DNA of 51,962 bases. Source: Candidatus Binatia bacterium (GTDB taxonomy: Bacteria > Vulcanimicrobiota > Vulcanimicrobiia > Vulcanimicrobiales > Vulcanimicrobiaceae). The translations under genes were made by a program, and so were the position numbers. Location: contig DATKMJ010000038.1 of assembly GCA_035541935.1 (NCBI GenBank), positions 1 to 51,962 on the forward strand. The letters are read 5' to 3'. The notes beneath the pieces are model-generated. The model searched no databases, had not been told where the DNA came from, and saw only the letters and a list, made by a program, of their open reading frames with translations. Position 1 is the stretch's first letter; every line of letters starts with the position of its first letter. Positions 24,305 to 46,393 of this stretch are shown piece after piece.

Positions 24305-24305
24305 C

Positions 24306-24506: not shown

Positions 24507-24518
24507 CGCAGCGCGCTA

Positions 24519-24554: not shown

Positions 24555-24580
24555 GAATCGAAGCCGATAGGAGCACCGTG

Positions 24581-26684: not shown

Positions 26685-26784
26685 TTGTAGGCCCCGTATT
26701 GCAACGAAAAATTGCGATGGAAGACGATTCTCTGCACGCACGAAGAGGCCTGGCCGCCCCCGGTGAAAAACGCGGTCATCCACG

Positions 26785-28276: not shown

Positions 28277-29242
28277 CTAGGGTTCTCGCCTCGTCCGCGA
28301 GCGCAGCTCGACGAGCAATCGAACGAGCATCGCACAGGCGAAGAGTATCACGACGAGCGCGGCGACGTCGGTAAGGAGCAGGCCGGCGCGCACGTGGCCG
28401 TTTTCGTCGATGGCGCCGCACGCCCGCGCGGCGCGACCGGCACCCGATCGCAGTTGCAGGACGAACCGCTGCCACCAGTTCGATGCGAGGCCCGATGCGT
28501 CGCCGACGTCGGCAACGACCTCCTCGGGGCGCCACGAGTTGCCCGGCACGATGATTCGCACCGTTCCATCCGGGTTGACTATGGCGACCGCCTCGGTGTG
28601 CACGATTGCGTTTCGCCCAATTCGGCTGATGCCGATTCCGAACTCGAGCGCGATGCGGCGCAGAGCCGACGCCGTGCCGGTCGCCAGCGTCCAAGGCGGA
28701 TCGGCGGCGCCAAACAGGGCGCCGTACCGCGCGAGCACTGCAGGCGTGTCGTAGTCCGGATCGAGCGTGAACTCGATCATGCGGGCGCCGGGTGGGATGA
28801 GGCGCTGCATGGCGGCGAATTTTGCCGACACGAGCGGGCACATCTGCGCGTCGCGGCAGCGGGTGTAGATGAACGACACGACGACGACGCGGCCGCGAAA
28901 GCTTCGCCACGACAGAGCGCGGCCTCGTTGGTCGACGAAATTTGCATCGGGGACGATGGACCCCGCTCGCAATTGCGGAACGAAGGGCGCAAACTCGGCG
29001 CGGGACGGCGCGGTTCTCTCCGCGGTCACTCGCAGCGTCCAGGGCTCCGACGTCTCGTCGACGACGCCGGTGACCCGGTCGCCAGGCGCGGGCTGTAAGC
29101 CTCGGCGGTCGATATCGAACGTCATCGTCATCGCCGGCATGCCGGCGAATGCGTCGTGATGAATCGTCGCCACGTGGTTCCGCTCGTCCACGCCGAGCAC
29201 GGTGCCGTGTAAAATGACCGCTGACGCTAGGATCGGCAGCAT
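28277..29242 (-). CDS. CusF-like domain fused to SCO-type copper protein
   Basis: 321 residues from ATG at 29242, 11 bases past the preceding stop. After a short hydrophobic start, residues ~12-75 match the CusF/copper-binding fold (GTVLGVDERNHVATIHHD, then FAGMPAMTMTFDI), with His and Met ligands. Residues ~90-260 are a SCO1/SenC thioredoxin fold with Cys129-x5-Cys135 (YTRCRDAQMCP) and the copper-ligand His215 (VHTEAVAI). One membrane helix closes the protein (AALVVILFACAMLVRLL). SCO proteins load copper into cytochrome oxidase CuA or act as thiol-disulfide reductases. A CusF-SCO fusion could pass Cu(I) between its own domains. Last gene of the minus-strand copper operon. Confidence 0.85.
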   Translation of the reverse strand: MLPILASAVILHGTVLGVDERNHVATIHHDAFAGMPAMTMTFDIDRRGLQPAPGDRVTGVVDETSEPWTLRVTAERTAPSRAEFAPFVPQLRAGSIVPDANFVDQRGRALSWRSFRGRVVVVSFIYTRCRDAQMCPLVSAKFAAMQRLIPPGARMIEFTLDPDYDTPAVLARYGALFGAADPPWTLATGTASALRRIALEFGIGISRIGRNAIVHTEAVAIVNPDGTVRIIVPGNSWRPEEVVADVGDASGLASNWWQRFVLQLRSGAGRAARACGAIDENGHVRAGLLLTDVAALVVILFACAMLVRLLVELRSRTRREP

Positions 29243-29252
29243 CGGTGTATCG

Positions 29253-30248
29253 TCAGTGGATCGTGATGGGGACGATCCGCACATCCATCACGCCCGCCGC
29301 GTTGCGAGCGATGAATCGAAGATCGTACGGGCGGTGATACTGCGGTATGACGTCGAGGACGTTCTGCGAGAACTCGAAGAGCCCGAAGTCGCGACGGTCG
29401 GCGGTGAAGGAAAACGATTCGGTTCTAATTTCGACGCTCGCAACATTCGTCGAGGCGACGATGCGCCCCGTCCAGGGCTTGCCGGGCCGGACCGTTGTGT
29501 CGTTCATCCATACCGTGACGATGCGCGGAGGCGCGCCCGGCGGCAGCGCGGGCGGCGTCGGCCACACCGCGGGAGCCGTCACGACGTCGGCCGGATCGAG
29601 CCTGCGCCCGTCGGTCGAATAGAGGAAGCGGCCGCAGGCGACCGCGACGTTCTCGAGGGTGGCCATCAGGCCGCGCGACCAGAGTTTCAGTCGGTCGAAC
29701 GGGCTATTCGGCACGCCGAGCGTCTGCCGCACCTCTGCCAGCGCTTCTTCGGGTTGCCAGTCGTTGCCCGCGTTGTATGAGACCAGGCGTTGTCGGGCGT
29801 CGAAAATCGCCAACACCTCACCGTGCTCGAGCTGGCCGTTCCCCTGCGGCGAGACGGCGATCGTAACGTTCAGCCGGCGCGCGAACGTTACTATCGCGAG
29901 CGGGTTGCCCGTTGCGAGCGTCCAGTAGTTGCGATCCTGACCGAACATCGCCCCGTAGCGGCGGAGCACTCGCGGCGTATCCTTCAGCGGGTCGAGCGTA
30001 ACTTCGAGCAGCCGGCTGCCGGGTGGGAGCAGATGCTGCATGTACGCGAACTTGGCTGAGAGCGTCGCACATTCGCGGCTGTCGCGACAGTGGGAATAGA
30101 AGAACGCGAGGACGACGCATCGTCCTTTGAGGGCGCTCCATCGAAACACTTGTCCGTCCTGATTGACGAACTCTTGGTCGGGCGGCAGGTCTGCGTCGAT
30201 TCGCGGCGGCGGCTTGCGGAAGCTGGGCGACAGCGCGATGCCGGCCAC
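29253..30248 (-). CDS. SCO-like protein with novel C-terminal domain
   Basis: 331 residues from GTG at 30248. A hydrophobic anchor (SGALLLSAAALILVV) is readable in frame upstream of this GTG, with no ATG, GTG or TTG before it, so the true start may be an unusual codon up to about 60 bases upstream, coupled to the PCuAC stop. The SCO domain has Cys54-x5-Cys60 (YSHCRDSREC) and a His in QLEHGEVLAIF. The last ~95 residues (GAPPRIVTVWMND through to NAAGVMDVRIVP) form an all-beta, Ig-like domain absent from known SCO proteins but shared with the paralogue at 31343. Probably membrane-anchored in the periplasm. Confidence 0.82.
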   Translation of the reverse strand: MAGIALSPSFRKPPPRIDADLPPDQEFVNQDGQVFRWSALKGRCVVLAFFYSHCRDSRECATLSAKFAYMQHLLPPGSRLLEVTLDPLKDTPRVLRRYGAMFGQDRNYWTLATGNPLAIVTFARRLNVTIAVSPQGNGQLEHGEVLAIFDARQRLVSYNAGNDWQPEEALAEVRQTLGVPNSPFDRLKLWSRGLMATLENVAVACGRFLYSTDGRRLDPADVVTAPAVWPTPPALPPGAPPRIVTVWMNDTTVRPGKPWTGRIVASTNVASVEIRTESFSFTADRRDFGLFEFSQNVLDVIPQYHRPYDLRFIARNAAGVMDVRIVPITIH

Positions 30249-30288
30249 GACGAGGATCAGCGCCGCAGCCGACAGGAGGAGCGCACCG

Positions 30289-30771
30289 CTACGGTGAGGT
30301 CGTCGTAACGTTCGAATTCACCTCGATCGTGCCCGCATGGCGGAAGTGCAACGAAACCGGAATCTTGTCGCCCGGCTTCAGGTCGCGAAACAGGCCGATT
30401 AACATGATGTGATAACCGCCCGGCTGGAGCTGCACGGAGCCGTGCGCGGGTACGGATATCGCCTGCACCTGATGCATGCCCATCATCATGCCGCCGGCCA
30501 TCGACCCCATGGGGCTCGGCATCGACCCCATGGCGCTCGGCATCGACGCTGTACTCTCGTGCATCTCGGCGGTTTTGCAGACGGGCGAATCTACCCCGAT
30601 AAGGTCGTCGGCAGCGGATCCGTCGTTGCGGATCTTCGCGTAGACGACACCGGTGCCGATCGCCGGTCGCGACCAGACGCCGGTAACGACGATCGTCTGC
30701 CCGGCGTTCGCCGGCAGCGCGCAGAACAGTAGCCCGAGCGCGGCCGGTCCGATGCTCGTCCATCTCATCAT
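30289..30771 (-). CDS. PCu(A)C copper chaperone with Met-rich insert
   Basis: 160 residues; ATG overlaps the upstream SCO stop (ATGA). Signal peptide ~1-23 (LLFCALPANA). The PCuAC cupredoxin-like fold has VTGVWSRPAIGTG, AEMHES with the first His/Met ligands, and GGYHIMLIGL with the C-terminal HxM pair. Between them lies an unusual run of Met/Ser/Pro repeats (SMPSAMGSMPSPMGSM, then GGMMMGMHQ). PCuAC binds Cu(I) and Cu(II) in the periplasm and delivers copper with SCO to cytochrome oxidase. The adjacent canonical SCO gene fits that partnership; the Met-rich insert should add Cu(I) sites. Confidence 0.9.
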   Translation of the reverse strand: MMRWTSIGPAALGLLFCALPANAGQTIVVTGVWSRPAIGTGVVYAKIRNDGSAADDLIGVDSPVCKTAEMHESTASMPSAMGSMPSPMGSMAGGMMMGMHQVQAISVPAHGSVQLQPGGYHIMLIGLFRDLKPGDKIPVSLHFRHAGTIEVNSNVTTTSP

Positions 30772-31337
30772 TTCGTCAACTCCTTCATATCGTGCGTGAG
30801 CGATCGCAGACTATCGTGCCAATCGTGGAGCACGCGCAGGCGGCCGTCCGGGGCGATGAAGTATATCGTCGAACCGTGGGCGACGAGGTACCCGGTTGCC
30901 GGACTGCCGGGCAGCTTCTGATGCCAGGCGTGATACGCGGCGTACACCGGGTCGAGCTGTGCCTCCGTTCCGGTGAGTCCGTAGAACGTGGGGTTGAAGA
31001 TGCGGACGTAGCGGCGCAGCGTCGCCGCATCGTCGCGCTGCGGATCCACGGTGACGAATGCCACCCGGACGCGCGCCCGCTGCTCCGGCGCGAGCTTTTG
31101 CAGCGCTGCCGCGAGCGCCGCCAGCGTCGTCGGACAGACGTCGGGGCAGTGCGTGTAGCCGAAGAAAAGGATCACTTCTTTACCGCGTTGCTGCGATAGG
31201 GTAAAGTGCTTACCGTCCTGATCGGTGAGGGTAAAATCCGACGCCGGCATGTCCACTGCGTTTCCGGCGAGCGAGTATTGGCGTGCCGCCGAGCACGCGG
31301 TCAAAAGGGCTAACGCCCCGATGGCGCAGATGCGCAT
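30768..31337 (-). CDS. canonical SCO1/SenC lipoprotein
   Basis: 189 residues from the ATG giving MRICAIGALA, 6 bases after the stop of the upstream gene. Lipobox LTAC (Cys15). Thioredoxin fold with the classical copper site Cys64-PDV-Cys68 (THCPDVCP) and His154 (LVAHGSTIYFI), plus VTVDPQRDDAATLRRY. This is the conventional CuA-loading SCO, tethered to the membrane by its lipid. It is translationally coupled to the PCuAC gene. The other three SCO-type proteins of this operon have Cx5C instead, so this one is the likely partner of PCuAC in oxidase assembly. Confidence 0.92.
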   Translation of the reverse strand: MRICAIGALALLTACSAARQYSLAGNAVDMPASDFTLTDQDGKHFTLSQQRGKEVILFFGYTHCPDVCPTTLAALAAALQKLAPEQRARVRVAFVTVDPQRDDAATLRRYVRIFNPTFYGLTGTEAQLDPVYAAYHAWHQKLPGSPATGYLVAHGSTIYFIAPDGRLRVLHDWHDSLRSLTHDMKELTK

Positions 31338-31342
31338 CGCGC

Positions 31343-32401
31343 TCACTCCACCCACAGCGTAGCTCGCTCCGTTTCTTGCACGCCTGGAGTGTTACGCGCG
31401 ATGATGTAGAGATCGTACGGATGCCGGCGAGCGAGAGGGGGGAGCTCCAAAATGCGCATGTGAAACGTATAGATCCCGGGCGCTGCGTGTACGCTATTGA
31501 TCGAAAACGATGCGGTCCGCACCTCGACGGATGCCACGTTCGAGCTGGCTACGATCGTTCCGTCGAACCAACTGCCCGGCCGAAGCCGGAGCGTCGAGAA
31601 CCAGACCTTGACGATATGGGGCGGCGCGCCCGGCCGCCGGATCGGCACCGCCGGCCAAGCTTCGGGCCGTTTCGCCGTAACCACGAGATTCGACGGAGCG
31701 GAAGGGGCGGAGATAGTGTCCTCGGCCAGCAGTCGCCCGCATGTAATCGCCACGTTTTGGAGCGCCGCAGCAACGTGACGTGAGAACAAGGCAAGTCTCT
31801 CGAACGGATCGCTTCGTCTGCCTAGAGCGTGCCGGACCTCTGCGAGCGCTTCGTCCGGCTGCCAGTCGTTGCCGGCGTTCAACGAAACGAGACGCTGACG
31901 GCGGTCGAAGATCGCCAACGCTTCTCCATGTGCTAGTTGTCCGGCACCGTTCGGCGATACGGCGATCGAAATATTGAATCTCCTCGCAAATTCGAGAACG
32001 CCGACCGGATCGCCGGTCGCCAGCGTCCAGTATTTGGGATCTTGTCCGAACGTGGCGCCGTATCGGCGAAGCACGTCGGGCGTGTCGTACGTCGGATCGA
32101 GCGTCACCTCGACCAAACGGCTGTCGCGAGGAAGACGGTGCTGCATGTACGCGAACTTTGCCGATAAAAGGGAGCATTCGTGCGAGTCGCGGCAACGGGA
32201 GTAGAAGAATGCCAGCACGACGCATCGTCCCCCGAGCTCGCTCCACCGGAACGGGCGTCCATTCTGGTCGAGGAATGCTTGGTCGACGGCGAACGACCGG
32301 CCGCCGGGAAGTGCGGTCGACCAAGCCTTCAGCGCCAAACTTAACGTTGCGATCGCGACGATCGCCGCGCAGAATCCGACGCGGGCGAACCAAATGCGCA
32401 C
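31343..32401 (-). CDS. SCO-like protein with novel C-terminal domain, paralogue
   Basis: 352 residues. An N-terminal signal anchor (FCAAIVAIATLSLALKAW) precedes a SCO domain with Cys70-x5-Cys76 (YSRCRDSHEC) and His158 (QLAHGEALAIF). Long stretches match the protein at 29253 (FAYMQH, EVTLDP, VLRRYGA, YWTLATG, SLNAGNDWQP). The C-terminal ~100 residues are the same beta-rich domain (GAPPHIVKVWFSTLRLRPG through to YIIARNTPGV). Classical SCO proteins lack it, so it may dock a partner or a cuproenzyme. The pair probably arose by duplication. It is upstream of the canonical SCO gene by 5 bases, clearly in one operon. Confidence 0.87.
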   Translation of the reverse strand: MRIWFARVGFCAAIVAIATLSLALKAWSTALPGGRSFAVDQAFLDQNGRPFRWSELGGRCVVLAFFYSRCRDSHECSLLSAKFAYMQHRLPRDSRLVEVTLDPTYDTPDVLRRYGATFGQDPKYWTLATGDPVGVLEFARRFNISIAVSPNGAGQLAHGEALAIFDRRQRLVSLNAGNDWQPDEALAEVRHALGRRSDPFERLALFSRHVAAALQNVAITCGRLLAEDTISAPSAPSNLVVTAKRPEAWPAVPIRRPGAPPHIVKVWFSTLRLRPGSWFDGTIVASSNVASVEVRTASFSINSVHAAPGIYTFHMRILELPPLARRHPYDLYIIARNTPGVQETERATLWVE

Positions 32402-32491
32402 GGGTTATGGCCGTTGCACCGCCGAGCGGCGCGACGAACGAGAGACCAAGTGTAATCCTCGCTAGAAGAGTTGTGTCGGCTGTAAGTTGGC

Positions 32492-33136
32492 TTAGCTAGC
32501 GAGAACCGGCGGTGCGCGCTTTCCGTGAATTTGCGAAACGTCCCAGACGTAGTCGAACGTCGTTAGCGCAGCCCGCTTCGCGAGGGTCGTAGCGGCGGCC
32601 GTCGGATAGTGCGCTCGTAAGAGGAGCGTAACGACGAAAACGAGGCGCGCGTGCGCGCTGGCCAGCCAGCCGCAAAAGGCTCCCGCCAGCGCGTTGAAAA
32701 GCGCACCAATTGCGAGGATTGCTCCCGCCCCCGCGAGCGGTACGCTGCCAAAAGCGCTCGCTACCCCATCGAAGCGCCCCGACGCTAACTGCTCGCCGCT
32801 CTCCATCGCCAGCAAGACGAGAGAGGCGCACAGCGACGTCGCGAGGATCGATCCCGGGCCGATTAGCCCCCTAAGGGAGCGAGCGAGCGATGGCAGCGAC
32901 GCATCGTCGAGGCCCGCGAGATACGCTCCGTAGAGGAGCATTCCGCAGAGCGCGAGCGCGGCTGCGGCCAAGCAGACCGGAAAGACGGACGCATGCTCGT
33001 GGCGCGCGTAATCGCCGCCGAGCACTCCCGCCGATTGCGCGATCTCGAGGAGCGCATGAGCCGCCAGTGCCGTTGCGAGCGCTATGGAAAGAAATCCCGC
33101 CGACGCGACGGCGACGTAGAGCCTGCGCGTGGTCAC
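32492..33136 (-). CDS. GGDY-x2-HxH membrane protein, copy A
   Basis: 214 residues, about five membrane helices. The first ends in ALAAHALLEIAQ, followed by the loop VLGGDYARHEHASVFP, a probable metal-binding element. Further marks are MESGEQLASGRFDGVASAFG and a C-terminal QIHGKRAPPVLAS. The gene at 40615 encodes a protein of exactly the same length with all these elements in the same places. The two copies lie near the outer sides of the divergent copper region. No named family is recognised; a role in metal sensing, holding or transport is inferred from context. First gene of the minus-strand set. Confidence 0.72.
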   Translation of the reverse strand: MTTRRLYVAVASAGFLSIALATALAAHALLEIAQSAGVLGGDYARHEHASVFPVCLAAAALALCGMLLYGAYLAGLDDASLPSLARSLRGLIGPGSILATSLCASLVLLAMESGEQLASGRFDGVASAFGSVPLAGAGAILAIGALFNALAGAFCGWLASAHARLVFVVTLLLRAHYPTAAATTLAKRAALTTFDYVWDVSQIHGKRAPPVLAS

Positions 33137-33222
33137 CTAACCACCTTGCACGCGCTCGCAACATCGGCCTGCCTCGCCGACGACGGGGGGCCGCTTAGCG
33201 CCGCGTCGAAGCCGCGCGCGTT

Positions 33223-33765
33223 ATGCGACGCTTCCCGGGCGCGATCGCGCTGGGTTTGTTGACGGCCTTTTCGGCACACGCGATCCTTTACGGAAACGGT
33301 CACGTCATGGGCGGGTCGTATGGCGCTGCGCTCCGCGCTCTCGCAACGGTGGCCGCGCTCGGTCTCGGCGCTTTCTGGTTTGCGATCTGTTGGGCGAGCC
33401 GCAAGCGGCTCTGCCAGGGAAGCGTGCTGACGGCCGACATCGGCGAACTGTTGCCTTCGATGCGTGCGACGTTCGCAGCATCGGTCTGCTGGTTTTGGCT
33501 TGCAGAGTCCGTCGAAGAGGGCCACGCTTGGGCACCGAATGCCGCCATCGTCGCAGCGCTCTTCCTGGCGGCGGCGATCGTGCGATTCGTCGCATTTTCC
33601 GGACTGCGCGAGCTTGCCCTGATCGCCTTCGCCTGCGACTCCGGCGGTTTCCAGAATCGCGTGCCGTCGTGGATTCCGATCGCAGACCGTCCGATCGCGA
33701 GCGTTCCGCTCGCGCACGCGCTGCGGCTCTTCTCGCGTCCCCCTCCGATGCGCTTCGGCTCGTAG
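33223..33765 (+). CDS. small membrane protein heading the plus-strand copper set
   Basis: 180 residues. Helices: ALGLLTAFSAHAILYG, RALATVAALGLGAFWFAI and AAIVAALFLAAAIVRFVA, plus a semipolar segment around VCWFWLAESVEEGHAW. His and Met side chains cluster after helix 1 (HAILYGNGHVMGGSYG), reminiscent of the GGDY loops in the neighbouring membrane proteins. It starts 86 bases from the divergent gene at 33136 and ends 41 bases before the CopC-CopD fusion, so it is probably the first gene of that transcript. No family recognised; a link to copper is contextual. Confidence 0.65.
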   Translation: MRRFPGAIALGLLTAFSAHAILYGNGHVMGGSYGAALRALATVAALGLGAFWFAICWASRKRLCQGSVLTADIGELLPSMRATFAASVCWFWLAESVEEGHAWAPNAAIVAALFLAAAIVRFVAFSGLRELALIAFACDSGGFQNRVPSWIPIADRPIASVPLAHALRLFSRPPPMRFGS

Positions 33766-33806
33766 ATACAGAGCAGCCTTTCTCTCGCGTTCGGAGGTTT
33801 TTCTTT

Positions 33807-35828
33807 TTGCCCCCATTCCGCAGGGCGTTTTGCGCCCTTACGCTTCTTTGGCTGTCGTCCACGGCCGTCGCGGCGGCACACGCATACGTCGTGGGCGCGC
33901 AGCCGCCCGCCAACAGCGGCAACGAACGGTCGCAGGGTTGGGTTTCGATTTCGTTCGACGAACCGATCGACCTGATCGACGCGGACGCGCTGCAGGTCTT
34001 CGCGCCCGATGGAAAGCGCATCGACGCTCGCGACGTCAAGATCGACCCGGCCGATGCCACGCGCGTCGTCGTCCACATTCCCCGATCGTTGCGGCGCGGA
34101 GTATACACGGTTCGGTGGCGGGTGATTTCGGCGGATTCCCACGTCGTTCACGGCAGCTACCAAGTTGGAATCGGCGTGCCGGTCTCGGGTACGGCCGGCG
34201 GCGAAATCGCATCGCCGTACGATCCCGCCTCGCCGCCGGCGGCCTTCCTGCGCTGGCTCACGCTGATGGGAGCGCTCCTAGCGACGGGCGCGATCTTCAT
34301 GCGGCTCTACGCGCTCGATCGGCTCGAAGCGGCCTATCCGGGCGTGGTCGAACTCGCCAGACGTTGCACTATCGCCGGCGCCGTCGTCGTGCTCGCCGCA
34401 TGGGCGCCAACCGTCATCGTTCAGTCGGCTGCGGCCAGCGGCGTGCTCGGCAGCGGCATCGCCGGCACGCTCGCGCGCACACCATGGGGAATAGCGCTTA
34501 TCGCCCGCGCGGTCGCCGCGGCGGCTCTATTGCTGCTCGCGGCGCGCGGCTGGAAAACGGCGGGCCGCGGCGCGATTGCGATCGCCGCCGCGCTCTTAGC
34601 GACTTTTAGCGTGACGGGACACGCCTTCGCGCAGCCCGGCGGTCTTGCGCGAGCGCTCGCCGTCGCGATCGATTTCGCCCATCTCTGCTGCGCCGCCGTG
34701 TGGATCGGCGGCCTCTTCGTGCTCGCGGCGCTGCTCGCACCGTGGTTCCGTGCGAAGGGCGATGCTCGCGAACGAGCGCGCGCGCTCTTCGCCGCGTTCA
34801 CCCCGGCGGCCATCCTCTGCGTAGGGACGATCGTCGCAACCGGGATCTACGCCTCCGCCGTTCACGTCGACGCGCCCGCAGATCTCTTCGTGACTGCCTA
34901 CGGGCGCTTATTGTTGGCGAAAGCTGCGATCCTCGTGGTTTTGGTAGCGTTTGGGTGGCATCACTCGCGCGTCGGAGCCGGCATTCGATCCAACGCGCAC
35001 AACGCGACCATCGCCTACGAAGCGATCTGGGGAATCGCGGTCGTGGCCTTGACCGCCGTGCTCGTGGGGCAAGCCCCACCGGCAAACGACGTCGCCGTAC
35101 CCACATCTCCCGCCGCGGCGCTGCTGCTGCTCCTCTGCGGTGGGATCGTTGCGAGATTCCTGTTCGTTGCCAAGACCGGCGCGCGGGGCTCGAACGCGCG
35201 GACCGCGCCCGTCTACTTCGACGTCGCGCTCGTCGCCGCCGGGATGCTTTTTCTCTGCATCGGAGTCGTGGGGAGGCTGGTCACGATCACGTCCGTTTCG
35301 ATGTATCCGACGCTTGCGCTCGGCGACGTCGTCTTCGTCGATCGCGTGACGTACGGCCTGCGCGCCCCCCGCGACGGTGAGATCCTCGTGTTGCGGCCAC
35401 CCGTTCGCCGAGTGCGAGACGAAGCTCAGCGCGTCATCGGCGTTGGCGGAGACGCGGTAGAGATTGCAAACGGCGTCGTGTACCGCAACGGGGCCGTCCT
35501 GCGCGAGCCCTACGCGACCGGGCCAATCGCTTACGATTTACGGATCAAAGATTACGAGATCTACGTGAACGGCGTTCCGCTCGACCCCAGTCTTGCAAAC
35601 GTTCCTCCGAGAGCGATGTGGCAGTCGCCCAGCCGCATTCCGAGGGGCTTCTATCTCGTGCTGGGCGACAACCGGAACTATGCCGTCGACTCCCACTATT
35701 GGGGCTTCGCGCAAACCGGTGGAGCCTTCGCGGCGGGATTGCTGAGGGCGCAGCGCGTGCCCGTTCCCGGCAGGCCGCTCTTCATCACGTGGCCCGCGAG
35801 CAGAGCGGGCGGATTGGAGGCATCCTGA
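33807..35828 (+). CDS. CopC-CopD fusion with C-terminal signal-peptidase-I-like domain
   Basis: 673 residues from TTG at 33807, with GGAGG 9 bases upstream. The signal peptide ends in AAA, leaving His25 as mature N-terminus (HAYVVGAQPP). With Asp110 and His112 (ADSHVVHG) this forms the Cu(II) site of CopC. Residues ~145-455 are the CopD membrane domain (eight or so helices, with FAHLCCAAVWIGGLFVLAAL). Residues ~470-665 match type I signal peptidase: membrane helix, SVSMYPTL with nucleophile Ser498, RVIGVGGDAVEI and LGDNRNYAVDSHYWGF. The catalytic Lys that precedes RVIG is Gln541, so protease activity is doubtful. CopC-CopD moves copper from periplasm to cytoplasm; the third domain is very unusual. 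Confidence 0.9.
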   Translation: MPPFRRAFCALTLLWLSSTAVAAAHAYVVGAQPPANSGNERSQGWVSISFDEPIDLIDADALQVFAPDGKRIDARDVKIDPADATRVVVHIPRSLRRGVYTVRWRVISADSHVVHGSYQVGIGVPVSGTAGGEIASPYDPASPPAAFLRWLTLMGALLATGAIFMRLYALDRLEAAYPGVVELARRCTIAGAVVVLAAWAPTVIVQSAAASGVLGSGIAGTLARTPWGIALIARAVAAAALLLLAARGWKTAGRGAIAIAAALLATFSVTGHAFAQPGGLARALAVAIDFAHLCCAAVWIGGLFVLAALLAPWFRAKGDARERARALFAAFTPAAILCVGTIVATGIYASAVHVDAPADLFVTAYGRLLLAKAAILVVLVAFGWHHSRVGAGIRSNAHNATIAYEAIWGIAVVALTAVLVGQAPPANDVAVPTSPAAALLLLLCGGIVARFLFVAKTGARGSNARTAPVYFDVALVAAGMLFLCIGVVGRLVTITSVSMYPTLALGDVVFVDRVTYGLRAPRDGEILVLRPPVRRVRDEAQRVIGVGGDAVEIANGVVYRNGAVLREPYATGPIAYDLRIKDYEIYVNGVPLDPSLANVPPRAMWQSPSRIPRGFYLVLGDNRNYAVDSHYWGFAQTGGAFAAGLLRAQRVPVPGRPLFITWPASRAGGLEAS

Positions 35829-35829
35829 T

Positions 35830-36318
35830 ATGATTCGACGACTCGCTGCGTTAACCGCGTTGGCGGCACTCTGCTTTCCGAGTTCGAGTGCCGCGCACGT
35901 GCGCGTCTTTCCGGATTTAGAGAGCACGCAGGCACCCGCTTGCAGCTTCATCACATTCGTCGTACGCGTCCCCGTCGAGCGGCCCGTCCCGACCGTTCGC
36001 GTCGATCTCGCGATTCCCAAGGGCGTCGTCGTAGCCGCGGTTCAACCGAAGCCGCCGTGGCGATTCGATCTGCAGACCACGAAGGGGATCGTAACGCGAA
36101 TCTCCTGGACCGGCGGGCGCTTGATGCCTCACGAGTTCGAAGAGTTCGCCTTTCTTGCGGCCACGCCAAGAACGCCGGGAACGCTCGATTGGGACGCTTG
36201 GCAATACTACGACGACGGGACCGTCGTGAGCTGGACCGGGTCCACCAACGCCGATACCCCGCACTCGGTGACGACCGTAACGTCCGGCTCGTGTAAACCG
36301 CCGAAGAAAACGAGGTAA
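35830..36318 (+). CDS. YcnI/DUF1775 copper-binding protein
   Basis: 162 residues, starting one base after the previous stop. The signal peptide (ALTALAALCFPSSSAA) leaves His23 at the mature N-terminus (HVRVFPDLEST), and KPPWRFDL supplies the Trp typical of YcnI. In YcnI the N-terminal His, a Glu and a Trp form a Cu(II) site. DUF1775 genes commonly sit beside CopCD or PCuAC genes, as here. There is no C-terminal membrane anchor, so it should be free in the periplasm. It probably hands copper to, or takes it from, the CopC domain encoded just upstream. Confidence 0.88.
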   Translation: MIRRLAALTALAALCFPSSSAAHVRVFPDLESTQAPACSFITFVVRVPVERPVPTVRVDLAIPKGVVVAAVQPKPPWRFDLQTTKGIVTRISWTGGRLMPHEFEEFAFLAATPRTPGTLDWDAWQYYDDGTVVSWTGSTNADTPHSVTTVTSGSCKPPKKTR

Positions 36319-36320
36319 CC

Positions 36321-38437: not shown

Positions 38438-38447
38438 GATTCGCGCG

Positions 38448-39512: not shown

Positions 39513-40555
39513 TCGGAACGAGTCGCGCGAGCGCGTCCGCCGGCTGGTACGACTGGCTGATGGCGGTCGCATCGCTCTGGCTCTCGGGCGGCATCATGAT
39601 CGACGCGTGGTATCATTTTCACTCGACCGTCGAATCGTTCTTCGAGCCGGCGCACGCGTTGCTCTATGCAGGCTTGCTCGCAGCCTACGTCTTCACGGCT
39701 CTTGCAGCGGTCTCCGGCCGCCGCCGGGGTTATCCATGGCGGCTCGCGCTCCCGGCGGGCTACGAGACGACGTTTGCCGGGCTGATCGTCTGCCTCATCG
39801 GAGGCATCGGCGATATGATCAAGCATTCGCTCTGGGGATTCGAACAGGGCTTTAACGCGCTCCTCAGTCCAACGCATCTCGTCATCGGCGCGGGGATGTT
39901 CTTGATCATCGCCGGCCCGATTCGATCGGGCCTGACGAGAGCGAGACCTCCGGCAACGTTGATCGCTCAGCTTCCCATGTTGCTGTCGGCGGCATCCATG
40001 ATGGAGCTGGCGCACTGGGGGACGCAGTTCATCTTCATGAGCGAGGCCGAAAGCTTCAACGCTCCACTGCCGCCCGCGAGCGTTCCACACTGGACCCTGA
40101 CGCTGCTCACGCTGCAGTACGATAAGCAGGGCATTGGATTGCTTGCCGTGATCGTTCAGAGCATCTTGATCGTGGGATTCGTCCTGTATATCGCTCGGCG
40201 GCTCCGCCCGGCGCCCGGCGCGGCAACCGTGCTGCTGGTGACGGGAAACGCGTTCATCGCCGCGGCCGGTTCGAATTACGCGGGTCAGTTTCTCTCGGTC
40301 GTCTTTGCCTCGCTCGTGGCGGGAGGTATCGCGGATGCTGCGAGGCTCGATCCCGCGGATCAACTGTCCCTGCGATGGCCTATCGCCGCGTTCGCAATAC
40401 CGTCCGGCTACTGGACGGCGATGCTCGCCGCCCTTGCGGTCACGATGGGCGGCATCTGGTGGTCTCCCGACGTGATATCGGGTTCGATTCTCTTCGCAGG
40501 GCTGGCCGGGCTCTTTCTCAACGCGCTAACCGGACCGTTCCAACGGGCGACCTGA
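39509..40555 (+). CDS. polytopic membrane protein with conserved His/Asp, tandem copy 2
   Basis: 348 residues, about ten membrane helices, ATG overlapping the upstream stop. Diverged paralogue of the previous gene: the helix order and the key segments IDAWYHFHSTVESFFEP, GGIGDMIKHSLWGFEQ, LLSPTHL and GTQFIFMSEAESF are aligned, while the rest differs widely. Tandem, translationally coupled paralogues usually form a heterodimer. The pair could be a two-subunit membrane complex for metal handling. No enzymatic signature or named family is recognised. Confidence 0.72.
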   Translation: MIGTSRASASAGWYDWLMAVASLWLSGGIMIDAWYHFHSTVESFFEPAHALLYAGLLAAYVFTALAAVSGRRRGYPWRLALPAGYETTFAGLIVCLIGGIGDMIKHSLWGFEQGFNALLSPTHLVIGAGMFLIIAGPIRSGLTRARPPATLIAQLPMLLSAASMMELAHWGTQFIFMSEAESFNAPLPPASVPHWTLTLLTLQYDKQGIGLLAVIVQSILIVGFVLYIARRLRPAPGAATVLLVTGNAFIAAAGSNYAGQFLSVVFASLVAGGIADAARLDPADQLSLRWPIAAFAIPSGYWTAMLAALAVTMGGIWWSPDVISGSILFAGLAGLFLNALTGPFQRAT

Positions 40556-40614
40556 GATTCGCGGTTCGAGCGATCGGCCGGGATTCTCTCAAACGCACGC
40601 GAAGTGAATCCGGC

Positions 40615-41259
40615 GTGCCGCATAGACTCTCCGCGAGCATCGCTGCGGCCGGCGTTCTGTCGGCAACGCTTGCCGTTGCGCTTGCCGCTCATACCGCGAT
40701 CGACCTGGGGAACGTGGCCGGGCTGCTCGGCGGAGATTACGGCAGCCACCGTCACGGGACGATTTTTCCGCTCGGTCTCGCCGGTCTCACGGCCGGTCTG
40801 AGCGCGGCTTTCTTCTATATCGTTCACCTCGCGGGAGCCGGTCTGCCGTCGCTCCCGTCTCTTGCGCGCCGGTTTCTCGCGCACATCGGCTGGAGAACCG
40901 TTGCGATCGTCGCGCTTGCGGCAAGCCTCGTGCTCGTCGGAATGGAAACCGCCGAACAACTCGTCTCGGGACGATTCGACGGCCTGCTGAGCGCGTTCGG
41001 CGGCTCGCCGGCGATCGGGCTCGGACTCATCCTGCTCTTGAGCTGCGCCGCTACCGCCGGGCTGCGCGCGTTGTGTGCTTGGCTCGCCGAAGCGCACGCG
41101 CGCATCGTCCTCGCCGTTGCCTGTCTGCTCCGATGCCGCGACCAAAGCGCGCCTTGCGCCCGTACGGGTGCTAAGAGCGTCGCGCTCGGGGGCTCTCGCT
41201 ACGCTTGCGACATTCCTCAGGCGCTCGGCGACCGCGGTCCTCCGATCCTCGCTCGTTAA
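40615..41259 (+). CDS. GGDY-x2-HxH membrane protein, copy B
   Basis: 214 residues from GTG at 40615; longer in-frame readings upstream are Arg-rich. About five membrane helices. It is the twin of the protein at 32492: AAHTAIDLGNVAGLLGGDYGSHRHG, METAEQLVSGRFDGLLSAFG and a QALGDRGPPILAR end all match in position, and both have exactly 214 residues. The GGDYGSHRH loop, probably periplasmic, could bind copper. One copy belongs to each arm of the divergent region, so each arm may need its own partner. It ends 47 bases before the TonB-receptor gene. Function unknown. Confidence 0.72.
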   Translation: MPHRLSASIAAAGVLSATLAVALAAHTAIDLGNVAGLLGGDYGSHRHGTIFPLGLAGLTAGLSAAFFYIVHLAGAGLPSLPSLARRFLAHIGWRTVAIVALAASLVLVGMETAEQLVSGRFDGLLSAFGGSPAIGLGLILLLSCAATAGLRALCAWLAEAHARIVLAVACLLRCRDQSAPCARTGAKSVALGGSRYACDIPQALGDRGPPILAR

Positions 41260-41306
41260 GCAGCAACCCCAACAACCAACCCCTGCTTTTTTAGCGAGGT
41301 TTTGCC

Positions 41307-43889
41307 ATGCCGGCCAGTTCGGCGCGCCGGGCGGTGCGCGATATCCTGTTTTCCGCTTCGATCGGAGCGCTCACGGTCGTCGCTTTTGTCACGCTGCTTG
41401 CGGGGCGTTCGGTTGCGGCCGCTGCGCCGGCGACGTCGGTCCTCGTCAGAGTCGCCCAGACCGCGAACGGAGCCGTGCTTACCGATTCCGATGGGTTCAC
41501 GCTCTACATCTACGATGCGGACTCCGCCAATCGTTCCACGTGCGTCGCGGCGTGTTCGCTGACGTGGCCGCCGCTGGTCGTCGCGTCCGGCGCGACGCCG
41601 ACGGAGCCGTACTCGATCGTCGTGCGCTCGGACGGCACGAGGCAGTGGGCCTATCGGGGCAGACCGCTCTATCGTTACCGAGGCGACGCGCGCCCGGGCG
41701 AGACGCTCGGATCCGCAGGCGGCTGGCACGTCGCACGACCCACCGCGGCCGACGCGGCTCGAGCGCAGCCGTTGACGATCGGCACGACGACCGCGCGGTC
41801 CCAAGCGACGTCATATCGAGCCCTCGACGCTTCGACGGCGACGAAGACCGACACGCCGATCTTGCAAACGCCCGTTAGCGTCGTCGTCGTCACGCAACAA
41901 GTGCTTCAAGATCAGCAGGACGTCAACATCGCTCAAGCCATCGCCAACGTGAGCGGCGTCAGCGTCGGAGGCGGCGGTGCGGCCGACAACGGTCAACCGT
42001 TCTCTTCCATATTCTTACGAGGGTTCTTGACCGACTCGCACTTTCGCGACGGCGTCCGCCTGGACAGCTTCGGCGGAGACAGCGACACGTACGGCCTGCA
42101 GTTGGCCAACGTGGACAGCGTCGAGGTTCTCAAGGGGCCCGCTGCGATTCTGTACGGCGCCGTGGAGCCGGGCGGCATCGTCAACGTGGTTACCAAGCAG
42201 CCGCTGGCGACGCCCTACTACTCGATTTTGCAGCAACTGGGTTCCTACGACTTCTCCCGCCTCGCAATCGATACGTCGGGCCCGCTTTCGTCAGACGGGA
42301 AGCTGCTCTACCGGGTCAACGCATCGTTCGAGAATCAGGGGTCGTGGGTCGACTACGTCTACGATAACAACTCGTTCTTCGCGCCCGTCATGCGATACAA
42401 GTTCGACCCGGCAACGCAGCTTACGCTCCAGTACGAATACCATCATCTCGACCTCGGCCAGAACTATGGCTTCGTTCCGTTGCTCAATGGGGCGCCGGTC
42501 AATCCAAGCATCAATGCCAACTACGGGAACGTTTCACCCGACGTTGAGACGACGAACTTCTGGGACCTGAGCTTTTCGCACCATTTCGCGAGCGGTTGGG
42601 AAATTAAGCAGACGTTCGTGCTGAACGACACCGACGTCGACTCCGCCGGACTCTATCCGAGCACGATCAAGAATCACGCAGACACTTCCAGCGGCTGGGG
42701 CGTCGGCCGCGCGATCAACAACGTCGTAAACGAGAACCAAAATTGGTCGGCGATCACGGACCTCACCCAACATGCGACGACGGGCGACGTTAAGCACACG
42801 CTCCTCTTCGGCGGGGACTTCTATCATTTCGGAACGGATGGTCAGATCAACCAGGCCGGTGAGACGAACAAAAACCTATCCTACGTGGATCTGTTCGACC
42901 CGGTCAACCCAGGAACGCCGTTCAAGAGACCGACGACGCCGCTGCTGTTCGACACGAACGCGAACGGATCGCTCGGCCTCTACGCGCAAGATCAAGTCGA
43001 GTTCCCGGGCAACATCTTCGCGCTTGCGGGGCTGCGCTATCAAGAACTGCATCAGACCAGCAGCGTGACCTTCTACCCGTATCCCGCGGCTGCGAGCCCG
43101 ATTCTCAACGCGACCGCGATAACGCCGCGCCTCGGGCTGCTCTGGCAGCCGCAGAAGTACCTGAGTCTCTACGCCGACTATTCCGGGAATTTCGGTCCGA
43201 ACGCGCCGGGCGATATTCTGCCGAGCGGAGCCAACGTTCCGCCGACGAGCGCGACGCAATGGGAGTTCGGGGTGAAGAGTGCGCTCCTCGGTTCGCAACT
43301 CACTGTGAGCGCGGCGTATTTCGACCTCACCAAGACGAACATCCCGACGCCGGATCCCTCGAACCCCAACTTCGTCTTGATCACGGGGGCAGCTCGGAGC
43401 ACCGGCGTCGAGTTCGATCTGCAGGGGCAGTTCGCTCCCCAATGGCAGGCCGTCGCAAACTACGCCGTCACGAACGCCGTCGTGACGTCGTCGAACGATC
43501 CGATCAACCCCGTCGGCTCGCCGCTCGGCGAGGTCCCGCATTATCTCGCGCGCCTGTGGGTTACGCACGACTTTCGCAAGTCGCCCAACGGGCCGAAGAT
43601 CGGCGGTGGGATCGGCTTCAACGGCCCCGAGCCCTACCTCTACGCCGGCGGCTCGGGGCTCGTCATACCGCCCTACTGTACCGTGGATTTAATGGCGTCC
43701 GACGGCTTTAGGATTGGCCAGTCGAGCGTTCGCGCGCAGATCAATGCGACGAACGTTTTCAATCGGCGCTACTACGCGGACGCTCAGAACTCGTCGAGTT
43801 TCTTCGTCACGAAGGCGCCGTATACAGCCTTTACGGCGCTCTACGGCCCGCCGCAGCAAGTCACGGGAGAGATCGTCTTTGGACTATAA
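41307..43889 (+). CDS. TonB-dependent receptor with N-terminal COG4315 domain
   Basis: 860 residues. N-terminal signal peptide or anchor (TVVAFVTLLAGRSVAAAA). Residues ~45-145 are a COG4315/PF03640 secreted-repeat domain (GFTLYIYDADSANRSTC, CSLTWPPL with Cys79 and Cys83, GRPLYRYRGDARPGE). From ~170 a TonB plug follows (TPVSVVVVTQQVLQDQ, FLRGFLTDSHFRDG, VLKGPAAILYG, EPGGIVNVVTKQP), then a 22-strand-type barrel to the end. It resembles ferri-siderophore receptors. The plug/barrel takes metal complexes through the outer membrane with TonB energy. The N-terminal fusion is unusual and might reduce or hold metal. Its stop overlaps the PepSY gene start. Ligand (iron or copper chelate) is open. Confidence 0.9.
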   Translation: MPASSARRAVRDILFSASIGALTVVAFVTLLAGRSVAAAAPATSVLVRVAQTANGAVLTDSDGFTLYIYDADSANRSTCVAACSLTWPPLVVASGATPTEPYSIVVRSDGTRQWAYRGRPLYRYRGDARPGETLGSAGGWHVARPTAADAARAQPLTIGTTTARSQATSYRALDASTATKTDTPILQTPVSVVVVTQQVLQDQQDVNIAQAIANVSGVSVGGGGAADNGQPFSSIFLRGFLTDSHFRDGVRLDSFGGDSDTYGLQLANVDSVEVLKGPAAILYGAVEPGGIVNVVTKQPLATPYYSILQQLGSYDFSRLAIDTSGPLSSDGKLLYRVNASFENQGSWVDYVYDNNSFFAPVMRYKFDPATQLTLQYEYHHLDLGQNYGFVPLLNGAPVNPSINANYGNVSPDVETTNFWDLSFSHHFASGWEIKQTFVLNDTDVDSAGLYPSTIKNHADTSSGWGVGRAINNVVNENQNWSAITDLTQHATTGDVKHTLLFGGDFYHFGTDGQINQAGETNKNLSYVDLFDPVNPGTPFKRPTTPLLFDTNANGSLGLYAQDQVEFPGNIFALAGLRYQELHQTSSVTFYPYPAAASPILNATAITPRLGLLWQPQKYLSLYADYSGNFGPNAPGDILPSGANVPPTSATQWEFGVKSALLGSQLTVSAAYFDLTKTNIPTPDPSNPNFVLITGAARSTGVEFDLQGQFAPQWQAVANYAVTNAVVTSSNDPINPVGSPLGEVPHYLARLWVTHDFRKSPNGPKIGGGIGFNGPEPYLYAGGSGLVIPPYCTVDLMASDGFRIGQSSVRAQINATNVFNRRYYADAQNSSSFFVTKAPYTAFTALYGPPQQVTGEIVFGL

Positions 43890-45087
43890 GGCGCTACGCG
43901 GAGCGTTCGTCTTGGCGCATCGGTACGTCGGGCTTGCGCTCGCCGCGTTTCTCGTCATCGAAGGCTTGACCGGCAGTCTTCTTGCATTCAACGCGCAACT
44001 TGAGCGGCTGATAAGCCCCCAGCTCTTCGCCGTGCCGGCCCCGGGTGCGCGCCGGCTCTCGCTCGGCGAGCTTGCCGAAAAGGCCGAGGCGCTCGTGCCG
44101 AACGGGCAGGTCGATTACCTCTTCGCCTATCCCAACCAAACGATGGTGCGCATGGAACCTCGGCCTCTGCCAGGTCTGAAGGACGGAAAGCCGATCGGGT
44201 TCACGCAGCTCTTCCTCGATCCGTGGACCGGCAGAGAGCTTGGCCGGCGCGACTTCGGTAATCTCGGGCAAGGGCCGATTAACGTTATGCCTTTCATTTA
44301 CAATCTTCACAGCGATTTGGCATTCGGGCCTAACGGCGAGCTCGTCCTCGGCGTCGTCGCATTGCTTTGGACGATCGATTGCTTCGTGGCATTTTATCTA
44401 ACGCTTCCGCCAGTGCGCCGCGAGTTTTGGCGACGCTGGCGGTTGGCGTGGAAGGTCAAATGGACCGTCGGAGCTTTTCGTCTGAATTTCGACCTGCATC
44501 GGTCGGGCGGACTATGGCTCTGGCCAATGCTTTTCGTCTTTGCCTGGTCGAGCGTGATGCTCGCGCTGCCGTCGGTCTACGGGCGCGTCACCGGAGAACT
44601 CTTCGATTATCGCTCGGAGGACTCGCTGCTCACGTTTCCGGCGCACTCGCTTTCGCGGCCTAAACTCGATTGGATCTCAGCCGAGCGCATCGGTGCGCGG
44701 CTTCTCGCCGAGCAGGGAGCCTCGCACGGATTCACTGTGGTTGCCGAGCCGGATACTCTTGCCTACATCCGGGAGGAAAGCGCTTACTCCTACGGTGCGC
44801 GGACGACGTTGGATATCCGAGGCGAAACATCCGATACCGGCGTGTGGTTTGATGCCGATACGGGTGCCTTTCGCCACCTCTTCTTGCCGAGCGGTCAGCA
44901 TACCGGAAACACGATCGGTACGTGGCTGTGGGCGCTGCACTTTGCAGATCTCGGCGACAGTCCGGTTTATCACGGCTTCGTTTGCATCATTGGGCTCGTA
45001 ATTGTCATGCTCGCATTCACAGGCGTCTACATTTGGTTTAAGAAGCGCAGCGCGCGGCGTTTTCGTATTCGCGCGAAAACGTCTTGA
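43879..45087 (+). CDS. PepSY-TM membrane protein, ferric/cupric-chelate reductase-like
   Basis: 402 residues from TTG at 43879, inside the end of the TonB-receptor gene, with GGGAGAG 7 bases upstream. It opens with the PepSY-TM helix (LAHRYVGLALAAFLVIEGLTG), then a periplasmic PepSY domain (PWTGRELGRRDFG). Helices ELVLGVVALLWTIDCFVAFYL and LWLWPMLFVFAWSSVML follow, then a second PepSY part and a last helix (LVIVMLAFTGVYIWF). His residues at helix ends (HRYVG, NLHSDL, DLHRSGG, LWALHFADLG) fit haem ligands as in FsrB-type siderophore reductases. Paired with a TonB receptor it probably reduces the imported metal chelate at the inner membrane. Confidence 0.88.
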   Translation: MDYKALRGAFVLAHRYVGLALAAFLVIEGLTGSLLAFNAQLERLISPQLFAVPAPGARRLSLGELAEKAEALVPNGQVDYLFAYPNQTMVRMEPRPLPGLKDGKPIGFTQLFLDPWTGRELGRRDFGNLGQGPINVMPFIYNLHSDLAFGPNGELVLGVVALLWTIDCFVAFYLTLPPVRREFWRRWRLAWKVKWTVGAFRLNFDLHRSGGLWLWPMLFVFAWSSVMLALPSVYGRVTGELFDYRSEDSLLTFPAHSLSRPKLDWISAERIGARLLAEQGASHGFTVVAEPDTLAYIREESAYSYGARTTLDIRGETSDTGVWFDADTGAFRHLFLPSGQHTGNTIGTWLWALHFADLGDSPVYHGFVCIIGLVIVMLAFTGVYIWFKKRSARRFRIRAKTS

Positions 45088-45136
45088 GTCGGCCCCTATG
45101 AGTCGCACTTTCGTTTTGAAGAGAAAGGTTGGCACG

Positions 45137-46393
45137 ATGAGCGTAACGGCACGTAAGGCGATCGTTCGGATTTGCGTCGCACTGGGAGTGCCTATGCTCG
45201 TTTCCGGATGCGCGGAACGATTGCCGCAGTGGCAGTTCGGCGCGCGACCGGTGTTTAGGATCGCCGGAGCACCCGGCGAGTCCGTCGCCGATCCGTCGCT
45301 TGCGTGGACTTCGGGCGGTCGATTGTATGTCGGTGTCTCGACATCGATTGGGGCGTCTTCCGCGTTCGCGTTGTTCAGCACGAGCGGCGACGGAGATCAT
45401 CTTGTGAAGAACGGCGTGGCACCGGTGCGCCCGAGTTTGGTAACTGGGGGACAAAGCGGACCGATCTACGCGCTCGATCGCGACGAGCACGAACACATTC
45501 TATGGTCCGACGAGGCTTCGGGGACGCACCATCTGTATGCAATGCAGCGTGGTTGGGCCGATCCGGCGTGGGTGCTCGCCGACGTGCGCGACAAGAGCGC
45601 TTCGGCGAAAAAATGGATCGCCTTCGGTGGGCTCTCCACCGGTCCACACGACACCGTATACGCGAGCTTTCTCGACGAGCGTGGCAACAAAACACCTGCC
45701 GAAGACGTAAGTTCGGTGTGGTTCGCGCGCTCGGCAAATGGCAGAGCTTTCTCGCCCAACATTCAGATCGCGGCACATACCTGTTCGTGCTGCAGGACCG
45801 CGACGGCCGCCGCTCCCGACGGAAAAACCGTCTACGTTGCGTTCCGCGGGAACTACGACACCGACGTGCGCGACATGGCCGTCGCGACGTCATACGATGG
45901 CGGACGGACCTTCGGGAAGCCCGTACGCTTAGGGCCCGACGGGTGGCAGATACACGGCTGTCCGGAGGCGGGGCCGTCGCTCCTCGTGCAAGGAGATCGA
46001 CTTTATGTCGTTTGGTTCACCCTTGGAGCAGAGTCGCGGCCGACGATCCGCCTTGCAATCTCCGACGATTTCGGTCGCTCGTTCTCGCGGGCGAAAATTA
46101 TCTCCGGAGGAATTCTCGACGTAAATCATCCGAAGATCGCCGCGCTGACTCACGATAGCGAGGTCGTCGTCTTCGAGGGCACGGATCCGTCACGTCTTGC
46201 GGGTAATGGGAACAGACAGGCTTGGGCGGAGACGATTACCGGGACGACGCCCGGCGTTCCGGCCGCCGCGACGCCGCCGGAGGTCTCGATTCACGATCCC
46301 GTCGTCGCCGCAGCCAACGCTCAACTTATTTACGTTGCCGCAGTGGCCGGAGACGACGTAATCATTATGCGTGGAAGAGCGCGCACGCCCTAA
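45137..46393 (+). CDS. BNR/sialidase-like propeller lipoprotein with CxCC motif
   Basis: 418 residues from the ATG giving MSVTARK, preceded by AGAAAGG; an ATG at 45098 is an alternative. Lipobox VSGC (Cys25). Asp-box/BNR repeats typical of six-bladed sialidase-fold propellers are present (SYDGGRTFGKP, SDDFGRSFSRA). Two Cys motifs stand out: HTCSCCRTATAA and WQIHGCPEAGP. They are shared by a family of exported sialidase-like proteins whose function I do not know; the Cys and His residues could bind metal or form a disulfide network. It lies 49 bases after the PepSY gene and is the last gene of the plus-strand copper set. Sialidase catalytic Arg residues were not identified. Confidence 0.8.
   Translation: MSVTARKAIVRICVALGVPMLVSGCAERLPQWQFGARPVFRIAGAPGESVADPSLAWTSGGRLYVGVSTSIGASSAFALFSTSGDGDHLVKNGVAPVRPSLVTGGQSGPIYALDRDEHEHILWSDEASGTHHLYAMQRGWADPAWVLADVRDKSASAKKWIAFGGLSTGPHDTVYASFLDERGNKTPAEDVSSVWFARSANGRAFSPNIQIAAHTCSCCRTATAAAPDGKTVYVAFRGNYDTDVRDMAVATSYDGGRTFGKPVRLGPDGWQIHGCPEAGPSLLVQGDRLYVVWFTLGAESRPTIRLAISDDFGRSFSRAKIISGGILDVNHPKIAALTHDSEVVVFEGTDPSRLAGNGNRQAWAETITGTTPGVPAAATPPEVSIHDPVVAAANAQLIYVAAVAGDDVIIMRGRARTP

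Follow-up and report, generated by a model that had tools for sequence, protein, structure and literature searches.

Three putative RxPP leader proteins and an unnamed membrane protein family in a divergent copper-handling locus of a Vulcanimicrobiaceae bacterium

A stretch of 51,962 nucleotides (nt) from Candidatus Binatia bacterium (Vulcanimicrobiaceae; contig DATKMJ010000038.1), here called the window, carries at positions 28,277 to 46,393 two divergent sets of genes for copper proteins, and this island raises the question of whether such genes constitute a complete system for copper acquisition and delivery, as a preliminary description of the sequence had claimed. The window is a single contig (C38) of a 2.4 Mb assembly (GCA_035541935.1) that is 99% complete. 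We find the island to be a genuine copper-handling locus: the single PCuAC of the genome and four of its six SCO domains are encoded here, and the two oxidases of the genome (C59 and C10), both with CuA motifs, would need such chaperones; the wider claim of a complete system is partly supported. The explanation that we favour overall, with a probability of roughly 0.6, is that at the head of each of the island's three units stands a polytopic membrane protein (M4a, M4b or M4c), a leader that would act as a translational switch, and that a pair of membrane proteins, M7a and M7b, would be clients of the copper chaperones. Two features would surprise a specialist: three polytopic RxPP leaders with matching anti-Shine-Dalgarno codons, and a membrane family, widespread but unnamed, whose ligand array resembles that of PmoC.

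Each unit of the island begins with a polytopic RxPP protein

Each M4 gene is the first gene ahead of a co-directional unit, 90 nt before a gene for an SCO protein fused to an Ig-like domain (SCO-Ig1) in the case of M4a, 41 nt before a CopC-CopD fusion gene (CopCD) for M4b and 47 nt before a TonB receptor gene for M4c. The three proteins end in RAPP, RPPP and RGPP, with RAPP and RGPP placed four residues and RPPP five residues from the end, and they have three to five predicted hydrophobic transmembrane (TM) windows. Among the 303 open reading frames (ORFs) of at least 60 amino acids (aa) in the window, only M4a-c join a C-terminal R[AGP]PP with TM segments. Alignment of 17 M4 homologues revealed an invariant Arg and Pro-Pro near the C-terminus as well as an invariant membrane Glu; the RxPP tail is present in all 17 and lies inside the last ~11 residues in 15, the reading frames of the remaining two extending beyond it. 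By comparison, R[AGPS]PP occurs in the last 20 aa of 43 of 9072 other ORFs. The libraries scanned gave no name for M4, with no match in Pfam, DUF2946 included, and none was matched in the plasmid collection. In relatives, the gene that follows M4 encodes a TonB receptor (L181, L185, L186), a receptor-sized CarboxypepD_reg protein (L189), a redoxin or thioredoxin (L180, L190, L192), CopCD (L190) or SCO (L182).

RAPP and RGPP are the motifs that stall ribosomes most readily, and proteins carrying them have been reported in silico upstream of TonB-receptor, YcnI, PCuAC and PepSY genes (PMC12992588). M4 proteins share with RAPP-type arrest peptides the C-terminal R-A/G-P-P (M4a and M4c), membrane insertion and a position just upstream of a co-directional gene. 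They are without the DUF2946 domain of CruR and CutF, and M4a and M4b are also without its Cys copper site, containing neither CXXC nor CxxxC (M4c has CLLRC). Judged by these features, M4a-c look like ribosome-arrest leaders of the SecM/CutF/CruR type, but polytopic.

Leader 3' ends are complementary to the Shine-Dalgarno sequence of the next gene

For 19 M4/next-gene pairs, whose sequences are related to one another, we paired the stretch between the RxPP codons and the stop codon of M4 with the Shine-Dalgarno (SD) stretch of the following gene. The mean duplex energy was -16.4 kcal/mol for matched and -12.2 kcal/mol for mismatched pairs, and none of 20,000 permutations reached the matched value. 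Since the mismatched partners share the same Pro codons and SDs, this excess is not merely complementarity of CCN to GG; the pairing sequences vary between loci yet remain complementary. In the window, the PPP codons of M4b, CCTCCGATGCG (33742-33752), find their complement in the CopCD SD region, CGCGTTCGGAGG (33786-33797), around a CCTCC/GGAGG core, and CCTCGCT (41247-41253), just past the RGPP codons of M4c, pairs with the receptor SD AGCGAGG (41293-41299) in a hairpin with a stability z of -1.89 (7/200 shuffles). M4a CTCGCTAG pairs with CTAGCGAG, an SD that now stands ahead of a TTG and 14 codons. This short ORF (32405-32449) resembles the N-terminus of the thioredoxin following M4a in congener G008 and ends in TAA, followed by CCC and then the in-frame GTG of SCO-Ig1, which suggests that a thioredoxin gene was probably lost between M4a and SCO-Ig1. 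The SD of the remnant is intact.

From the protein families, gene order, RxPP tails and SD complementarity, we infer that the ribosome pauses on the nascent leader at its C-terminal R-x-P-P. The RxPP codons, or those right after them, would form one arm of a hairpin covering the SD of the next gene, and the paused ribosome would open this hairpin to turn on the SCO-Ig1, CopCD or TonB-receptor arm; copper, thiol redox state and membrane insertion are candidate signals for setting the pause. Downstream, YcnI and CopC-CopD, then SCO and PCuAC, would handle copper on the periplasmic face, with the M7 pair as the most likely client besides the two CuA oxidases. Parts of this mechanism have precedents, as CruR arrests via RAPP upstream of a copper TonB receptor (PMC9426467), and in the case of CutF a delayed ribosome opens a stem-loop over the next SD (PMC9973294). 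Should the leaders function in this way, a single island would employ three polytopic nascent-chain switches whose arrest codons double as anti-SD strand, and what in silico studies have recently described, RAPP proteins encoded ahead of copper genes, would turn into directly testable hairpins.

M7 proteins carry a PmoC-like ligand array and have copper-related neighbours

The M7 family is found in 43 of 60 relatives, with four copies in the genome of the island. A scan of 84,980 genomes returned 212 loci, the best 80 of which belong to Chloroflexota, Eremiobacterota, Rokubacteria, Actinobacteria, Armatimonadetes, Acetothermia and bacteria of the candidate phyla radiation; the nearest named relatives of the island proteins are from metagenome-assembled genomes of Candidatus Eremiobacterota, a phylum to which the bacterium itself probably belongs. 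M7 genes also occur on plasmids of Rhodococcus, Deinococcus, Paenibacillus and Nonomuraea, and none of the M7 proteins scanned has a Pfam or NCBIfam name.

Conserved residues of the family are D31, H35, P46 and H48 in a first motif and D101, H105, G109, E111, P120 and H122 in a second, both on the predicted periplasmic side as judged from loop charges. The double D-x3-H...P-x-H motif was present in 106 of 109 M7 proteins versus 2 of 8977 other ORFs, and the motif starts are 71 residues apart in the majority of M7 proteins; in AmoC/PmoC the distance is 71 or 73. In PmoC, D156, H160 and H173 bind CuC and N227, H231 and H245 bind CuD (PMC12576850), so that M7 has the two-site array of PmoC, about 71 residues apart, with D in place of N in site 2. 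Both hmmsearch and hhalign align M7 and PmoC in the same motif register; hhalign gave P values of 2e-4 to 4e-3 at a probability of at most about 50%, with scores of 33-38 versus at most 28.5 for 12 other membrane families and at most 18.7 for reversed controls. PmoC membership by sequence profile was not borne out, as hmmsearch of the PDB gave E=1 for a profile built on 18 sequences and nothing for one built on 64. Pfam PF04896 (PmoC/AmoC) matched neither M7a nor M7b, nor any protein of the genome in a search in which the controls were also silent. M7 models (pLDDT 89) have ~10 helices, and Foldseek returned no significant match for the whole protein or a four-helix fragment, the top match being a bo3 oxidase subunit (E 0.16) and AMO subunit C standing at rank 38 with a probability of 0.15. 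A likeness to oxidase subunit III that was seen by fold was not seen by profile. Subunits A and B of a copper membrane monooxygenase (PF02461, PF04744) are absent from the genome, whereas the positive control was found. By these alignments M7 has a PmoC-like ligand array and an unproven homology to PmoC, with weak backing from profile comparison and none from fold. We consider it rather doubtful that M7 is a distant stand-alone PmoC/AmoC relative that functions in the absence of subunits A and B and receives its copper from SCO, PCuAC and CopCD; were this the case, the copper membrane oxygenases would have a branch, so far unrecognised, that extends over Chloroflexota, Eremiobacterota, Actinomycetota, Deinococcota and several candidate phyla.

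It is from the motif together with the gene neighbourhoods that we infer copper binding by M7. A YtkA-PCuAC lipoprotein gene lies downstream of M7 at a median of 19 nt in 25 Chloroflexota loci, SCO adjoins M7 in a Rokubacteria locus (L107), a multicopper oxidase and ctaD stand beside M7 in two Rhodococcus plasmids, and the M7 neighbours in Deinococcus aetherius encode a heavy-metal P-type ATPase, a metal-sensitive regulator (CsoR-type) and an HMA-domain protein. In Eremiobacterota, an Ig-like lipoprotein gene is divergent from M7; the window has the same domain as part of an SCO fusion (SCO-Ig), and in G036 the fusion has the opposite domain order. Elsewhere, a P450-like gene directly follows M7 (L063, L067 and L079, Pfam-confirmed in L063) or an S-adenosylmethionine methyltransferase gene does, and with such neighbours the role of M7 may vary. 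Further M7 relatives have a TolB-like beta-propeller inserted in a loop (L043, L048 and L049; ORFs of 618-631 aa), and a Chloroflexota contig carries four tandem M7 genes (L133, 7875-12433).

Several observations weigh against the model of leader switches with M7 as client. The RPPP of M4b is neither RAPP nor RGPP, the pair for which the readiest arrest is reported; individual hairpins are only mildly stabler than shuffles (z -0.7 to -1.9); and start codons were picked by SD score and are doubtful in a few of the 19 pairs, such as those of the window M4a and the G007 M4b. Because several M4 relatives precede TonB receptors without a known substrate, the signal need not be copper. As to M7, most Eremiobacterota copies are accompanied by the Ig-like protein alone, which has no conserved Cys, His or Met, PCuAC is rare in that phylum, and most of the 25 Chloroflexota loci probably belong to a single clade.

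The receptor unit resembles a siderophore system

The preliminary description had copper entering through the outer membrane, a step that the receptor scores do not sustain. With the ferrioxamine receptor FoxA the island TonB receptor reaches 190 bits, with the copper receptor CrtA (9RVQ) 58 bits, so CrtA is not its closest relation. Its PepSY partner matches its one solved relative, 7abw, which we take to be FoxB, over the full length. Given a receptor nearer FoxA and a FoxB-like PepSY protein, the pair may import a ferric siderophore. The receptor N-terminus carries Lipoprotein_15 repeats (SCO0930-like, 72 bits), which is unusual in receptors.

These similarities raise the prospect of a mixed island, in which a copper module (SCO, PCuAC, CopCD, YcnI and M7) adjoins an independent siderophore module (M4c, TonB receptor, PepSY and BNR-repeat protein) with the same kind of leader. 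M4 relatives are often followed by a TonB receptor alone, and the copper clusters of congeners G007 and G008 show no homologue of the receptor, PepSY, Nramp or BNR protein in the stretches read. The two sets of genes are nevertheless on the same strand with a spacing of 47 nt and no break, and BNR relatives accompany SCO and PCuAC in another genus, where one sits between the PCuAC and SCO genes (L182). We regard a mixed island as plausible, at somewhat less than even odds; it is compatible with the leader mechanism proposed above and differs over the purpose of the receptor unit.

The copper core is conserved, the full gene set is not

The preliminary description had named a lack of co-occurrence in relatives as what would tell against it, and the outcome was divided. 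Of 17 congeners, two (G007 and G008) share a core (M4b, CopCD, YcnI, the Met/His protein and two M7 proteins), there present as M4b, a CopCD-signal peptidase S26 fusion (CopCD-S26), YcnI, Met/His protein, M7a, Ig-like lipoprotein and M7b, G008 carrying M4a as well. PCuAC was present in 4 of the 60 relatives but in none of the 17 congeners tested, CopCD-S26 in three of the phylum's 149 genomes, all three from the genus of the island itself, and the whole gene set nowhere else among the relatives compared. It follows that the conserved unit is the core and not the full set. A gene for a pentameric ligand-gated ion channel homologue (L190, 16155-17198, minus strand) lies close to the copper cluster of G008.

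Of the 'complete system', then, copper handling and a recurring core stand, and a single conserved pathway from uptake to enzyme is not supported. Such a route would take copper from outside (TonB receptor, PepSY reductase) through the periplasm (YcnI, CopCD, SCO, PCuAC) and on to cuproenzymes, cytochrome oxidases among them. Two CuA oxidases and the placing of the genome's only PCuAC and canonical SCO in the island speak for it, as do the CrtA-PepSY operons, some with PCuAC and ScoI, that are a described copper route (PMC12914433), and B. subtilis, where YcnJ and YcnI with the YtkA domain supply oxidases (PMC13344008). Set against these are the FoxA- and FoxB-like receptor pair and the scarcity of PCuAC and CopCD-S26, and we judge a single complete route to be unlikely.

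The CopCD C-terminus, which had been missed, is a signal peptidase S26 domain that retains the Ser, SMYPTL and GDNR, with Gln replacing the catalytic general-base Lys, so that the Ser/Lys dyad of signal peptidase I is lacking. At this position the three CopCD-S26 fusions have Gln, Gln and Glu, and the genome's two housekeeping signal peptidases keep Lys. By sequence the domain is probably a catalytically dead peptidase fold, possibly a pseudo-peptidase that binds signal peptides or pre-proteins.

The absence of a P-type copper efflux ATPase, noted before for the island, holds genome-wide by curated cut-off, with no TIGR01511 match over 397 bits; the best candidate (C33), read directly, is KdpB adjoining KdpA. 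The island genes include no efflux pump, CusCBA not having been searched for genome-wide. Both negatives speak against detoxification by periplasmic sequestration, in which CopCD, CusF and Met/His proteins would shield the envelope, as do SCO, PCuAC and YcnI, which are delivery proteins. CopC and CopD first became known from copper resistance, the island has a CusF domain and a Met/His-rich protein, and in G007 a multicopper oxidase follows CopCD-S26; on balance we hold detoxification to be very unlikely.

Gene models and layout

Gene models (Table 1) were adjusted using start codons and SD sites. The minus arm runs M4a, SCO-Ig1, SCO1, PCuAC, SCO-Ig2, CusF-SCO and the plus arm M4b, CopCD-S26, YcnI, Met/His protein, Nramp, M7a, M7b, M4c, TonB receptor, PepSY, BNR protein, with an 86-nt gap between M4a and M4b and most intergenic distances between -32 and +90 nt. 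The families and the close-packed divergent layout of the preliminary description were thus upheld, Pfam recovering all four SCO domains, PCuAC, CopC and CopD, DUF1775, Nramp, the TonB receptor and PepSY_TM, and the secreted Met/His-rich protein having 9.1% His+Met. Its 'four unnamed His-rich membrane proteins' are in fact five, in two families (three M4, two M7), and at 3.7-5.2% His+Met are not His-rich.

ORFs 30257-30763, a candidate PCuAC gene, and 33133-33816 proved to be in the wrong frame and were dropped. No Rfam family matched in the window, where scans for sigma-70 promoters and terminators gave chance level only. Three secreted proteins alike in 'LLYVSN/YVAD...YPSG' propeller-like repeats flank the island (25668-26837, minus; 24200-25582 and 47804-50563, plus).

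Table 1. Features of the island, in window coordinates.
Feature	Position	Strand	Basis
CusF-like domain, atypical SCO (C-x5-C), C-terminal TM	28277..29284	-	Pfam SCO1-SenC 1.8e-17, CusF_Ec 2e-6
SCO-Ig2 (SCO fused to Ig-like domain)	29253..30248	-	Pfam SCO 7.5e-15; C-terminal part matches the small lipoprotein that relatives encode divergently from M7
PCuAC copper chaperone with Met-rich insert	30289..30771	-	Pfam 7.6e-31; genome search
SCO1, canonical (CPDVC)	30768..31355	-	Pfam 1.1e-40
SCO-Ig1	31343..32401	-	Pfam 1.6e-14
Thioredoxin-like remnant ORF, 14 codons	32405..32449	-	Comparison with congener G008
SD CTAGCGAGG	32457..32465	-	Complementary to M4a codons 32503-32496 (CTCGCTAG)
M4a, polytopic putative arrest leader, tail GKRAPPVLAS	32492..33136	-	Homologue alignment, tail and pairing analysis
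M4b, polytopic putative arrest leader, tail FSRPPPMRFGS	33223..33765	+	Homologue alignment, tail and pairing analysis
Predicted hairpin M4b/CopCD SD	33742..33797	+	Pairing of M4b PPP codons with SD region of CopCD
CopC-CopD-signal peptidase S26 fusion	33807..35828	+	Pfam; alignment with the genome's own signal peptidases
YcnI/DUF1775	35830..36318	+	Pfam 1.2e-16
Secreted Met/His-rich protein, no Pfam family	36321..37217	+	Composition
Nramp-family transporter, TTG start	37214..38437	+	Pfam 6.9e-71
M7a, two D-x3-H...P-x-H motifs (D31,H35,H48; D101,H105,H122)	38448..39512	+	Family alignment, model
M7b, second M7 protein	39509..40555	+	Family alignment
M4c, polytopic putative arrest leader, tail GDRGPPILAR	40615..41259	+	Homologue alignment, tail and pairing analysis
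Predicted hairpin M4c/TonB receptor SD	41247..41299	+	Pairing of codons just past RGPP with SD
TonB-dependent receptor (siderophore type), N-terminal Lipoprotein_15 repeats	41307..43889	+	Profile matches, FoxA/CrtA scores
PepSY_TM protein, FoxB-like	43879..45087	+	Pfam; match to solved structure 7abw
BNR-repeat lipoprotein with CSCC motif, last gene	45137..46393	+	Domain scan; relative in L182

Comparison with known systems

Like CruR and CutF (PMC9426467, PMC9973294, PMC12992588), the M4 proteins have a C-terminal RAPP/RGPP, are exported or membrane-inserted and are encoded by the first gene before TonB-receptor, SCO/PCuAC or CopC-type genes, and as in CutF a stem-loop would hide the SD. They differ in being polytopic, without DUF2946 or, save CLLRC in M4c, a CXXC/CxxxC motif; in addition, three copies head three units of a single island, and it is the RxPP-proximal codons themselves that would hide the SD. 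Compared by description only, the four-TM RAPP/RGPP arrest proteins of the S. lividans SLIV_18480 type (PMC12992588) are likewise polytopic, with a C-terminal motif and a place upstream of metal genes. In the CrtA-CrpH copper pair (PMC12914433, PMC13038864), a receptor followed by PepSY_TM also stands behind a RAPP-type leader, whereas the island receptor is the one nearer to FoxA. B. subtilis YcnJ, a CopC-CopD-YtkA fusion found with YcnI (PMC13344008), agrees with the order of CopC-CopD fusion, then YcnI, but the third domain in the island is a signal-peptidase fold instead of YtkA. Finally, M7 differs from PmoC/AmoC in its greater length (about 350 aa), in a second motif that begins with D and in the lack of subunits A and B, of a significant profile E-value and of fold-search support, and resembles them in the two D/N-x3-H...P-x-H hairpin motifs at their usual spacing and in the company of copC, copD and pCuAC, which also flank pmo operons (PMC6189053). 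M7 supplies a short list of residues and many genomes for asking whether copper sites of the PmoC type also occur beyond the monooxygenase complexes known so far.

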